Assembly: GCA_000585055.1 (NCBI GenBank)
Contig: JEMX01000067.1
Span: 1 to 64,000 of the forward strand
Origin: Candidatus Accumulibacter appositus
GTDB taxonomy: Bacteria > Pseudomonadota > Gammaproteobacteria > Burkholderiales > Rhodocyclaceae
Length of the DNA: 64,000 nucleotides
Reading direction: 5' to 3'
This document shows positions 25,660 through 28,886 of this stretch, piece after piece. The notes beneath the pieces are model-generated. The model was not told the origin of the DNA, did not search any database, and saw nothing but the letters and a program-made list of their open reading frames with translations. How positions within the stretch are numbered: the stretch's first letter is position 1; every line of letters begins with the position of its first letter. A program made the position numbers and the translations under genes.

Positions 25660-25689
25660 ATTTTAGCACTCGTAGCCTGAGAGTGCTAA
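25660..25689 (-). promoter_or_regulatory. Predicted rpoH promoter overlapping CIRCE
   Basis: On the minus strand, TTAGCA (-35, four of six matches) and TAAAAT (-10, five of six) are separated by 18 nt, and the CIRCE palindrome fills the interval from -35 to the edge of -10. HrcA bound here would block RNA polymerase directly. Transcription would begin near 25653, leaving a leader of about 35 nt. Confidence 0.65.
25663..25689. promoter_or_regulatory. CIRCE operator (HrcA binding site)
   Basis: TTAGCACTC-N9-GAGTGCTAA is a perfect match to the CIRCE consensus, with both 9-bp arms intact and the canonical 9-nt spacer. CIRCE is the operator for the repressor HrcA and usually precedes groES or dnaK/hrcA operons. 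Here it precedes rpoH. Confidence 0.95.
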
Positions 25690-25852
25690 GGGCAGAGAAA
25701 GTTCGTCCGCATCTGCGGCGGTGGAGCACGGACCCGCTTTCCCGGAACGACGACGAGCGATGGTCACGAAAGTACCGGCCAGGAGTCGGGCTGCCTGACC
25801 TCGGGTCAAGGGCGGCGGCAAGCACGACCGCTCGGCATCGTTCCTCGGTTCG

Positions 25853-26320
25853 TCAGTTCACCACCAGCTTATAGTCGGGCGTCGGGTTCAAGGGGCACGA
25901 ATAGACGTACTCGCCGGGCTCAAGATCGATGACGTAGTCCTGCGTCTTGCCGGCAATCAGGCCTCCGCCGGAGACGCTGGGCAGCGTCACCCGCCCGGTG
26001 AGGCCTTCGCCGCGCAACCAGAAGCCGAGCTCGTAGGGAACATTCCTGTTGGTGACGCGAAAAATCGTCTTCCCCGCTTTGAGTTTCAGGACTTTCGCTT
26101 GCTCGACGCGGCTGGCGCCAGACTGGGCATTGATCGCCTCGCAGTCCTTGATGTTGCTGCTGCGGTAGCCGTGGTCGTTGCCCTGCTCGCTCTCCAGGAA
26201 TTGGCAGGGGAGCTGCGTCAGCTCGACGATGGCTGCTGGCGGCTCGGCAGCCAAGGCATTGCCGAGGGCACAAGGGGCGGCGAGCAAGAGGCTCACGAAG
26301 AACTTGTTTGCGGTGATCAT
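25853..26320 (-). CDS. Secreted cupredoxin-fold protein
   Basis: A 155-aa protein with a Sec signal peptide (MITANKFFVSLLLAAPCALGNALA), so it is periplasmic. The C-terminal half resembles a cupredoxin barrel: LKLKAGKTIFRVTNRNVPYELGFWLRG, then LEPGEYVYSCPLNPTPDYKLVV. Cys in the last loop is in the place of the blue-copper Cys, but the usual His before and after it are not evident, so classical type 1 copper binding is doubtful. Two further Cys (LPCQF and KDCEA) may form a disulphide. Start ATG 26320 follows GAGGAG. It is downstream of the pentahaem lipoprotein on the same strand. Confidence 0.72.
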   Translation of the reverse strand: MITANKFFVSLLLAAPCALGNALAAEPPAAIVELTQLPCQFLESEQGNDHGYRSSNIKDCEAINAQSGASRVEQAKVLKLKAGKTIFRVTNRNVPYELGFWLRGEGLTGRVTLPSVSGGGLIAGKTQDYVIDLEPGEYVYSCPLNPTPDYKLVVN

Positions 26321-26431
26321 GGTGATTCTCCTCAAGAACGGTCGGGTCATGCCGCGAACCGTGGACCACTCAAAAAGCGCAAGCCGCTTGTGGGTGCGCC
26401 CGTGGGCACCCGGCGCCTGCGTTGGCCAGAT

Positions 26432-27727
26432 TCATCGTTGCGGGAGCTCTCGCCGCTCGTCAAAGGCCAGAAACGCAGACGATTCGGCTTGCTTGAGGGC
26501 CAATGCAATCAGCTCCTGGCCTTTTCCTGCGCCGCCATCGGCAAGCAGCGCACGGTAGAAACGGGCGTAGAACTCGTCAGGTTCGACGCGCAGACGGTAG
26601 GCAAGTGCGACTGCGGAGCGATGCGCTGGGCGCTGGTACACCAAGCGGAGCTCGCCGTCCGGCGGCAGGCGCGTGTCGGCGATCTCACTGCCGAGATCGA
26701 CAGGGACCTGCCGTTGAATGAGCTGCTCGACGCGGGTTCCCGGCAAACTGCGACCCTCGCTGTCGAGCTGCTCGATCTCGGCGACCAGTCTGGGTGTCAC
26801 ATAGGTCGGCAAGTAATGGCCGGCGCCGGTATTGCGTATGTTCAGCGCTGCGCGGATGGCGTTGTTAACCCACTCCCCGCTGTCCACCGAAAAGGCGACG
26901 GCAGCCCGGACCATTTCCGGATCGTGAATTCCCCGCCACAGGTGTCGGCGTTCGGGCATGTGGCAGGATTGGCAGCTGCGGCCTTCTCGGGCATGTCGCG
27001 ATGCCTTCCATTCCTCGTAGGTGTTCTCCAGCAGTTTCCCGTTCAGGGCGTATTCGTCCGGCTGGAACTGGTGGCAGGCAGAGCAGAAGCGCGCATCCTC
27101 GAAAGCGCCGGTGGCGACGAAGCCGGCATGCGGCAAAGCGGCGTTCTGTGCGGCGTCGGGTGCGCTCCCGTCGCGCCGTGGCGGGCCCGAGCGCTGATGC
27201 GCCCGAACGTGACAGGCGGCACAGATCACCCCCTGCTGGTGCACAGACGCGGCGGCTGGCAAGGGGGCGCCGCTTGCTGACGCCTGTTCGGTTGCCGCGA
27301 GCTCAGCAAGCAGGGCGTCGGCCTGTTCCGCCAGCGGAGCGTGGCAGCGGATGCAGTCCTGATGTTCATCGCGTGCGCCTGGGTCCATGGCGAGCAACTG
27401 CCCCATCAGGCCGGGCCCCATGGCGTGGGCGTGCAAGCTTGTCTGCCAGTCACGGTATTGCTCAGGATGACAGCTACCGCAATCGGCGGGTACTAGTGAG
27501 GCTTCAAGCGGGCTGAAGTGCTTGGGGGGCTCACCCTGCGCGGCGAGTGGGCGCGCCCAGTGGCGGTCGAGAAACGCGCCTGCCGCGTCCACGGGTTCTG
27601 TCAGCGGCGAGCTCTCGGCGAGGGCTGGTGGTACGACCGTCTCGCCCCTGTTGCAAGCAGCAAGAGCGAACAGCAAAACGGGAAGAGCCAACAGCACCCT
27701 TCCCGTTTCAACTGCTGAAGTGAACAT
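26432..27727 (-). CDS. Pentahaem c-type cytochrome lipoprotein
   Basis: A 431-aa exported protein with a lipoprotein signal (LLALPVLLFALAAC, lipobox LAAC) and five CxxCH haem-attachment motifs: CGSCH, CIRCH, CAACH, CSACH and CQSCH. The last reads CQSCHMPE, as in many multihaem cytochromes. A beta-rich C-terminal domain of about 150 residues (about 280-431) has no haem. It would be a membrane-tethered electron-transfer protein in the periplasm or on the outer membrane. Start ATG 27727 is 16 nt after the stop of the NPCAAK gene; the open frame continues upstream through that gene, but this is an artefact. Its redox partner is unknown. Confidence 0.85.
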   Translation of the reverse strand: MFTSAVETGRVLLALPVLLFALAACNRGETVVPPALAESSPLTEPVDAAGAFLDRHWARPLAAQGEPPKHFSPLEASLVPADCGSCHPEQYRDWQTSLHAHAMGPGLMGQLLAMDPGARDEHQDCIRCHAPLAEQADALLAELAATEQASASGAPLPAAASVHQQGVICAACHVRAHQRSGPPRRDGSAPDAAQNAALPHAGFVATGAFEDARFCSACHQFQPDEYALNGKLLENTYEEWKASRHAREGRSCQSCHMPERRHLWRGIHDPEMVRAAVAFSVDSGEWVNNAIRAALNIRNTGAGHYLPTYVTPRLVAEIEQLDSEGRSLPGTRVEQLIQRQVPVDLGSEIADTRLPPDGELRLVYQRPAHRSAVALAYRLRVEPDEFYARFYRALLADGGAGKGQELIALALKQAESSAFLAFDERRELPQR

Positions 27728-27743
27728 GCTCAGGCGATGCTCA

Positions 27744-27998
27744 TCACATCTTCTTGGCTGCGCAAGGGTTCTTGGCAGCACAGGGATTTTTCGCAGCGCA
27801 CGGATTTTTCGCAGCGCAGGGGTTTGCCGCCTTTGCCGCGCACGGATTGGCCATCTTGGTCGGTGCGGATTTTGCGGCACAGGGGTTCTTCGCCGCGCAG
27901 GGGTTCTTCGCGGCGCACGGATTGGCCGCGTGCGCGAAAGGAACGGCGAGAGCAAGAGCGGCGGTGCCGAGCGCAAGCTTCAGGGTTTTCGTGTTCAT
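27744..27998 (-). CDS. Secreted NPCAAK-repeat protein, 84 aa
   Basis: A Sec signal peptide (MNTKTLKLALGTAALALAVPFAHA) is followed by eight copies of the hexapeptide NPCAAK, broken once by SAPTKMA and once by AA, ending KM. The mature protein of about 60 residues therefore has eight evenly spaced Cys and eight or more Lys and nothing else resembling a folded domain. A role in binding soft metals such as copper is an inference from Cys periodicity and from the cupredoxin and cytochrome neighbours. Start ATG 27998 has AGGAG upstream. I do not recognise a named family. Confidence 0.8.
   Translation of the reverse strand: MNTKTLKLALGTAALALAVPFAHAANPCAAKNPCAAKNPCAAKSAPTKMANPCAAKAANPCAAKNPCAAKNPCAAKNPCAAKKM
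27750..27927 (-). repeat. 18-bp tandem coding repeats (NPCAAK units)
   Basis: The eight hexapeptide units are encoded by near-identical 18-bp modules, in two blocks. The high DNA-level identity implies recent expansion or ongoing slippage, and the copy number may vary between strains. Confidence 0.8.
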
Positions 27999-28048
27999 GA
28001 GCGGTCTCCTTTGGTAGGTTTTAGTTACACAATCTAGCGGAACATCCG

Positions 28049-28177
28049 CTATTTCTTTGCAGCACAAGGGTTTGTTGTCGCGCAGGCGTTGGCCGCCGCG
28101 TAGGACGTGGCCATGGGCAGTGCCAAGCCGCCGGCAAGAGCAATGGCCAAAGCAAGTGGTTTCGCTTTCGGGTTCAT
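28049..28177 (-). CDS. Secreted mini NPCAAK protein, 42 aa
   Basis: A very short gene on the minus strand. The protein has a signal peptide (MNPKAKPLALAIALAGGLAL and on to SYA) and a mature tail AANACATTNPCAAKK containing one full NPCAAK unit and one further Cys. Start ATG 28177 is preceded by AGAGGAG at good spacing. The stop at 28049 is 50 nt before the start of the 84-aa repeat protein, to which it is clearly related by signal peptide style and tail. It is likely the first gene of the locus, and easily missed by gene finders. Confidence 0.7.
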   Translation of the reverse strand: MNPKAKPLALAIALAGGLALPMATSYAAANACATTNPCAAKK

Positions 28178-28655: not shown

Positions 28656-28886
28656 ATGTCGAAAGTCCCTGAAAACCTGCCAGAGAGCACTTGCCCGGAT
28701 TGCGGTCGCACCTTCGTCTGTGGTGTGGAGGCTGGCCTGACGACTTGCTGGTGCATGCAGAAGCCAGGCCGTGCGGACTATGCGCCGCCTCCCTTCACGC
28801 CGGACGCCGGCAGCCGTTGCTATTGCCCGAGCTGTCTGGCGCAGCGTTTCAGCGCTCCGCCAGAAAAGCCCTCTCCGGGAGCATGA
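28656..28886 (+). CDS. Cysteine-rich CWC family protein
   Basis: A 76-aa protein matching the Cys-rich CWC family: CPDCGRTFVCGV, CWCMQKP and CYCPSCLAQRF, with nine Cys in all. The spacing suggests a zinc-binding fold. The function of this family is unknown. GAGG precedes the ATG. The 3' end overlaps the convergent nudB gene by 38 nt (28849-28886). Confidence 0.85.
   Translation: MSKVPENLPESTCPDCGRTFVCGVEAGLTTCWCMQKPGRADYAPPPFTPDAGSRCYCPSCLAQRFSAPPEKPSPGA

Follow-up and report, generated by a model that had tools for sequence, protein, structure and literature searches.

Bufferins and other peptides made with MNIO enzymes combine a Sec-type signal with cysteine motifs and are encoded beside their enzyme, whose gene usually lies 3' of that of the peptide (PMC12452194). 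The SoxXA-SoxYZ system follows a related logic, in which a cysteine-bearing exported carrier stands beside a haem enzyme, and transporters of the YeeE/YedE type (PF04143), including TsuA and SoxT (PMC11582611, PMC11073785), are known with the TusA-like YeeD as partner. In Geobacter, the extHIJKLMNOPQS cluster, to which the five-haem protein ExtKL belongs, includes ExtH and ExtI and has been linked to the reduction of selenite and tellurite (PMC5877670). Here we consider a locus at positions 25,853 to 28,177 of a 64,000-nt stretch of Candidatus Accumulibacter appositus DNA (contig JEMX01000067.1, positions 1 to 64,000; "the window" below means this whole stretch), where one of four consecutive genes encodes eight copies of the hexapeptide NPCAAK. 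Our reading, for which we find the case evenly poised, is that the locus preserves, in partly eroded form, a gene module that centres on exported proteins with cysteine repeats and has apparently not been described before. In it the protein family DUF6969 (PF22308) would mature or load the repeats, equipping them as carriers in the redox chemistry of sulfur or selenium in the periplasm. That such a module exists is, taken by itself, very probable. Its component families are known, as is the logic of an exported cysteine peptide with a dedicated enzyme; what differs here is the enzyme and the repeat.

Exported cysteine repeats in the window and in related genomes

The sequence-only reading that singled out this locus had proposed four consecutive minus-strand genes spaced by 50, 16 and 111 nt, and both the open reading frames (ORFs) and the intergenic gaps were found again at the same coordinates. 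Export signals at the locus were judged by eye. Its features, with NPC standing for Asn-Pro-Cys, are as follows:

28177-28052 (stop to 28049), minus strand: 42-residue ORF, probable remnant, still in frame, of an NPC-tailed monohaem cytochrome c of SoxA/TsdA type
27998-27744, minus strand: NPC-repeat protein of 84 residues, eight NPCAAK units, Sec-type signal by eye
27727-26432, minus strand: pentahaem c-type lipoprotein of 431 residues, five CxxCH sites, putative remote ExtKL/MccSep relative
26320-25853, minus strand: exported cupredoxin-fold-like protein of 155 residues, without conserved type-1 copper ligands
28035..28051, minus strand: inverted repeat TAGCGGA..TCCGCTA overlapping the stop codon of the 42-residue remnant; a similar inverted repeat lies 3' of the stop in the relatives G001, G016 and G022 (G and L numbers are our handles for genomes and loci)

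Each of the eight NPCAAK units of the 84-residue protein has its own 18-nt coding sequence (the mean difference is 3.75 of 18 nt), and since all of these differences are synonymous, it is the peptide that is kept. Homologues with 6-10 NPC motifs are present in G001, G004, G010, G016, G018, G022 and G047. Of the 61 relatives, 9 contain the pattern NPCAAKNPC, and of 369 genomes of the class 10 contain the looser NPCxxKNPC, the reversed control pattern giving 0 matches in each case; two of the ten class matches (G136 and G197), at whose positions there is no secreted NPC protein, are probably due to chance. The control and the synonymous-only variation together rule out that NPC proteins are chance low-complexity ORFs. 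Records carrying NPC genes include Accumulibacter, Halomonas, Denitromonas and Rokubacteria, among others, and NPC repeats are also found fused to thioredoxin, YHS and cytochrome P460 domains (L221:2261-2776, L221:446-1174, L174:6611-7180). No relevant paper on NPC strings in the biological sense was found in the open-licence PubMed Central literature.

The pentahaem gene and the NPC repeats occur in exactly the same nine of the 61 relatives (a tenth pentahaem match, in G032, is a 72-residue stretch with stops), and the cupredoxin-like gene in six of those nine as well as in G011 (at a contig end), G046 and, as a scrap, G014; to this extent the proposal is borne out that these genes form a coherent exported redox locus, apparently undescribed. 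DUF6969 was found in 10 of the 61, namely all nine NPC genomes (in G047 as a 36-residue piece) and one of the 52 others (G011), an overlap with a hypergeometric probability of 5.8e-10, uncorrected for shared ancestry. It lies on another contig or more than 500 kb from the pentahaem cassette in G000 (the window genome), G001, G010, G016, G018 and G022; the window genome's copy, outside the window, is at G000:C12:152460-153068 (281 bits). In G014, the sister of G022 (100/100 in an rpoH tree, a tree of one gene with most forks weak and 4 of 25 rows left out), the cassette site holds only the scrap of the cupredoxin gene and DUF6969 is also missing, a joint loss at two sites.

A scan of named genomes listed at least 80 NPC loci, 78 of them with an NPC gene of at least three motifs; per locus up to 8 kb of DNA was available, often ending at an edge, and the profiles and bit thresholds were of our own making. 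Partners among the 80 listed loci are the monohaem cytochrome (35), DUF6969 (34), the pentahaem protein (15), YeeE (9), the cupredoxin-like protein (8), DsbD (5) and thioredoxin (4), with neither MNIO nor DUF2282 above threshold at any of them (profiles from three seeds and one seed). The sequence-only reading would have been refuted by repeat genes lying mostly without the cytochrome and cupredoxin genes in related genomes, and here the outcome is divided: within the genus the genes co-occur, but among these loci only the 15 and 8 just given have the pentahaem and the cupredoxin-like gene in the available DNA. The commoner partners, monohaem cytochrome and DUF6969, were invisible in the window because one has been deleted there and the other is on another contig. 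Two loci present the parts as single runs, monohaem-pentahaem-DUF6969-cupredoxin-like in L181 and monohaem-YeeE-DUF6969-pentahaem in L214, and in both the pentahaem and DUF6969 ORFs overlap by 4 nt. BLAST clustering also returned a protein family beside the NPC genes in 8 of the 80 listed loci (for example L169:108-602); the one member scanned is a DUF302 protein.

DUF6969 and the peptides encoded beside it

In the class sample DUF6969 was found in 30 of the 369 genomes, including seven of the eight with a real NPC gene. A gene for a cysteine-repeat protein lies within 1.1 kb of it in 26 of these 30, in 23 by script and in three by eye (G095, G105, G319); the same script placed such a gene near 3 of 113 other genes, and those three look spurious. 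All but one of the 23 scripted genes (22) are 5' of DUF6969, the other (G111) being counted as 3' though there is one on each side. The neighbour in G074 and G185 is the NPC-monohaem gene itself, 564 and 944 nt away, and genomes without a nearby cysteine-repeat gene are G000, whose NPC genes are elsewhere, G147, G271 and G186. Two background tests were discarded: 19/34 versus 31/430, for which the control loci had been chosen for NPC genes, and 21/34 versus 11/150, which suffered from spurious shadow ORFs on both sides, including the match in L162.

The repeats paired with DUF6969 are not homologous at sight, and comprise NPCAAK, NPCAPSARGG, NPCAPGGGYGGG, SPCGL/SPCSL, NPCSLDED, TCAA and CCG. 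In 11 of the 30 class genomes a YeeE gene lies within 400 nt of DUF6969, a cysteine-repeat peptide gene standing next to the two; here the transporter is partnered by the peptide and DUF6969 and not by the TusA-like YeeD. Among the relatives, a YeeE/YedE-type gene is 3' of the cupredoxin-like gene in G010, G018 and G022, and none was found in the window genome, G001, G004 or G014. In L295-L307 the interval between YeeE and DUF6969 encodes short peptides with one hydrophobic stretch, a DHT[RS]H stretch that recurs, and SPC[GS]L-type repeats.

Across 59 DUF6969 sequences Y72, H73, H75, E81, H82, G83, H84, F85, H86, F88 and H119 are invariant (motif YH-H....EHGHFH-F), and no signal peptide was seen by eye. 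An AlphaFold model of high confidence (predicted local distance difference test, pLDDT, 91.3; predicted template modelling score, pTM, 0.90) gave no convincing fold match in the PDB; the Pfam entry names no function, and no paper on the family was found in the open-licence PubMed Central literature. The likeness to bufferins extends to signal, cysteine motifs and the position of the enzyme gene, whereas the partner is DUF6969 instead of MNIO and DUF2063, and modification of the repeats is a prediction. In the main text of the bufferin paper neither NPC repeats nor DUF6969 appear (PMC12452194).

The haem proteins and the cupredoxin-like protein

The 42-residue ORF had been taken for a mini peptide and a unit in its own right, and is instead probably what is left of a larger monohaem cytochrome gene. 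Over residues 1-38 it is 79% identical to a 193-residue protein of G001, than which it is 151 codons shorter, and it consists of the signal peptide and last NPC repeat of that cytochrome; the DNA 3' of its stop codon also matches G001 (by eye). The G001 protein and its homologues read, in order, NPC repeats, one CxxCH haem domain and NPC repeats again. All five monohaem proteins scanned score above the cut-off of PF21342 (SoxA-TsdA_cyt-c), which has no match in the window ORF in a Pfam scan, and the CxxCH motif and a cysteine about 40 residues further on are invariant in 38 of 38 monohaem sequences. The haem domain was probably lost in frame between the two NPC arrays, with 151 codons, and if so the open frame of the remnant is expected because the deletion ran between in-frame repeats. 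Of the nine NPC genomes, seven (G001, G010, G016, G018, G022, G031, G047) have the monohaem gene intact, the window genome has the remnant, and in G004 no copy was found. Both G016 and G022 carry the intact gene, followed by DUF6969, at a site other than the pentahaem cassette, where G016 retains a similar 44-codon stub and G022 the tail only (by eye). The intact copies are:

L057:9220-10761: intact NPC-monohaem copy of G022, followed by DUF6969
L055:9587-10231: intact NPC-monohaem copy of G016, with DUF6969 at G016:C7:386377-386985

A functional small protein was not our first choice for the 42-residue ORF, given that intact relatives show the missing haem domain. The stub may nevertheless retain a residual role, in view of the like stub in G016 and the tail in G022. 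By its haem domain and the invariant cysteine after CxxCH, the relatives' monohaem protein resembles SoxA/TsdA, and the placing of an exported cysteine-bearing carrier beside it recalls the logic of SoxXA-SoxYZ. Unlike SoxA/TsdA, it has one haem with NPC repeats at both ends, its PDB matches to SoxA are weak (E 0.007), and in the window the haem domain is gone.

The pentahaem lipoprotein is, judged from its sequence, a remote relative of ExtKL/MccSep without the selenocysteine. It scores 62 bits (E 3.8e-17) against NF040886 (ExtKL), where the equivalog cut-off is 250 bits, and 57.5 bits in a search of its own genome, and it aligns over residues 56-325 with PDB 9WT8, the solved selenoprotein MccSep (E 5.6e-10); from the names and the sequence we infer MccSep to be ExtKL, and nothing relevant on MccSep was found in the open-licence PubMed Central literature. 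It has the five CxxCH haem sites of ExtKL, all kept among genus members that are 87 to 67% identical. It differs in being a lipoprotein, with a lipobox-like Cys25 invariant in nine aligned sequences, in its NPC-repeat neighbours, and in its missing selenocysteine, there being no in-frame TGA in the ORF and the aligned stretch reading GHYLPTYVTP. In the class sample, an NPC-rich protein with an export signal is encoded no more than 1.4 kb away from seven of the eight top-scoring homologues not belonging to the window genome (L135-L142); the exception is L139. Around the more distant relatives (L143-L149) there is a trihaem cytochrome gene in 7/7 cases, with the motif ANACGLGASSCFKCHNG or close to it, a porin-type gene in 5/7 and a 516-residue-type gene of weak rhodanese likeness in 6/7, Pfam having been run on L146 only, where it returned Porin_O_P, rhodanese at 20.8 bits (under the 22.2 cut-off) and a sigma-54 two-component pair. 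By analogy, these surroundings may recall ExtH and ExtI of the Geobacter ext cluster. No rhodanese (ExtH) or porin (ExtI) gene was recognised among the neighbours of the locus in the window, neighbours on which Pfam was not run.

For the fourth protein, the cupredoxin fold had been read from a sequence whose Pfam match is weak (E 0.22), yet a model of low confidence (pLDDT only 60.7) points the same way, the 50 listed Foldseek matches being all cupredoxin-type by title, with EfeO best (3.2e-5) and plastocyanin and amicyanin among the others. Type-1 copper is bound by two histidines, a cysteine and usually a methionine. Nine cupredoxin-like sequences share Cys39, Cys60 and Cys142 and no invariant histidine, so that a type-1 copper centre is unlikely and the earlier view of this protein as a copper protein is not supported.

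Beyond the locus, a divergent small Cys_rich_CWC gene (PF14375) adjoins it at window 28656-28883, plus strand. On the other side, an inverted repeat TTAGCACTC-N9-GAGTGCTAA at window 25660-25690 is 5' of a neighbouring sigma-factor gene, presumably rpoH, and resembles what we take to be a CIRCE/HrcA element; a like repeat precedes the same gene in G001 and G014.

Sulfur carrier, metal buffer or electron conduit

If DUF6969 serves the repeats, it would be a cytoplasmic metalloenzyme that modifies, loads or protects their cysteines before Sec export. Beyond the inner membrane, the thiols or persulfides of the exported array would then offer many sites for carrying sulfur, or perhaps selenium or tellurium. 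The SoxA/TsdA-type and pentahaem haem proteins would oxidise or reduce this cargo, YeeE would import sulfur into the cell, and DsbD/thioredoxin would presumably re-reduce the array thiols; for the window organism this would leave the redox step to the pentahaem protein alone. That DUF6969 acts on the repeats seems to us slightly favoured. A cargo of sulfur or another chalcogen rather than metal appears somewhat more probable still; the YeeE/YedE transporters, SoxA/TsdA-type haem domains, DsbD/thioredoxin and the ExtKL relationship suggest sulfur or selenium more than copper. More tentatively, DUF6969 could represent a new enzyme class without recognised fold relative, acting on the cysteines of Sec-exported or membrane-anchored repeats (NPCAAK, NPCAPSARGG, NPCAPGGGYGGG, SPCGL, TCAA, CCG) and so giving multi-site carriers of sulfur or selenium in the periplasm, from which YeeE transporters and dedicated haem enzymes would be supplied.

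It is important to set against this account of sulfur carriers that the modification, cargo and transport of the arrays are all conjectured, and that several observations fit it poorly. DUF6969 was not found in G121, which holds both NPC-monohaem and pentahaem genes, nor in the available up-to-8-kb DNA of 46 of the 80 listed NPC loci, and 24 of the 80 have no listed partner. The window genome (93.9% complete) lacks YeeE and an intact monohaem gene as far as found, and therefore the sulfur cycle drawn above cannot be complete there. The count of 26 of 30 cysteine-repeat neighbours comes from a script rule written after the peptides had been seen, and includes by-eye additions for which the control has no by-eye counterpart. 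The ExtKL tie is loose, since 2 of 14 control genomes also contain sequences that match NF040886 below its threshold and the pentahaem protein also weakly matches other multihaem families. Since NPC repeats also occur fused to YHS, thioredoxin and P460 domains, they may serve as a generic thiol module and not as carriers of sulfur. Finally, a bufferin-type DUF2282-MNIO-DUF2063 operon lies directly 3' of the NPC-pentahaem genes of G004 (L052:5072-8462), and G196 has an MNIO-like gene.

The last point belongs to the main rival, which we consider unlikely: buffering of copper or another soft metal, in which the NPC arrays would be metallothionein-like or bufferin-like exported chelators, DUF6969 would install metal-binding groups on their cysteines, and the cytochromes and cupredoxin-like protein would be metal clients or detoxifiers. 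Sec signal, cysteine motifs and dedicated enzyme gene are the arrangement of bufferins, which chelate copper (PMC12452194). The G004 operon, the genes similar to its MNIO that L135 and L158 carry at most 8 kb from an NPC gene, and the YHS domain fused to NPC repeats in L221 speak for this rival as well. However, the cupredoxin-like family has no invariant histidine, the partners that recur beside the repeats have to do with sulfur or thiols (YeeE, the SoxA/TsdA haem domain, DsbD/thioredoxin), and MNIO, which G004, L135 and L158 had prompted us to consider as the NPC enzyme, is not general, being above threshold, like DUF2282, at 0 of the 80 listed loci; none was recognised at the window locus. 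A purely electron-transferring system, with the pentahaem lipoprotein and NPC cytochromes as a periplasmic or outer-membrane conduit that the NPC proteins would scaffold or hold together by disulfide links, is improbable. ExtKL, near which the pentahaem protein belongs, is discussed as belonging to electron conduits and to the cable-bacterium PHC family (PMC6148476, PMC11976967), but such a conduit leaves unexplained an apparently cytoplasmic family with an invariant His/Glu cluster that tracks cysteine-repeat peptides where no adjacent cytochrome was seen (e.g. L293, L294, L296, L299), and no porin gene was recognised beside the window locus.

It seems equally doubtful that the window copy is a decaying remnant without present function. 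The reduction of its monohaem gene to 42 codons, the failure to find YeeE in its genome and the cassette loss shown within the genus by the pair G022 and G014 point towards decay; against it, all eight NPCAAK units are intact as protein despite their eight codings, pentahaem sequences of the genus members are 87 to 67% identical and keep all five haem sites, and DUF6969 is retained elsewhere in the window genome.

Should the sulfur-carrier reading prove right, a set of exported cysteine-repeat proteins would gain both a partner enzyme and a testable job. One study (PMC11582611) describes sulfur import into the cytoplasm as poorly understood, and the cysteine-repeat carriers would be a direct, testable candidate for it. 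Should the arrays prove to bind metal, they would be a further family of exported metal buffers beside the bufferins.

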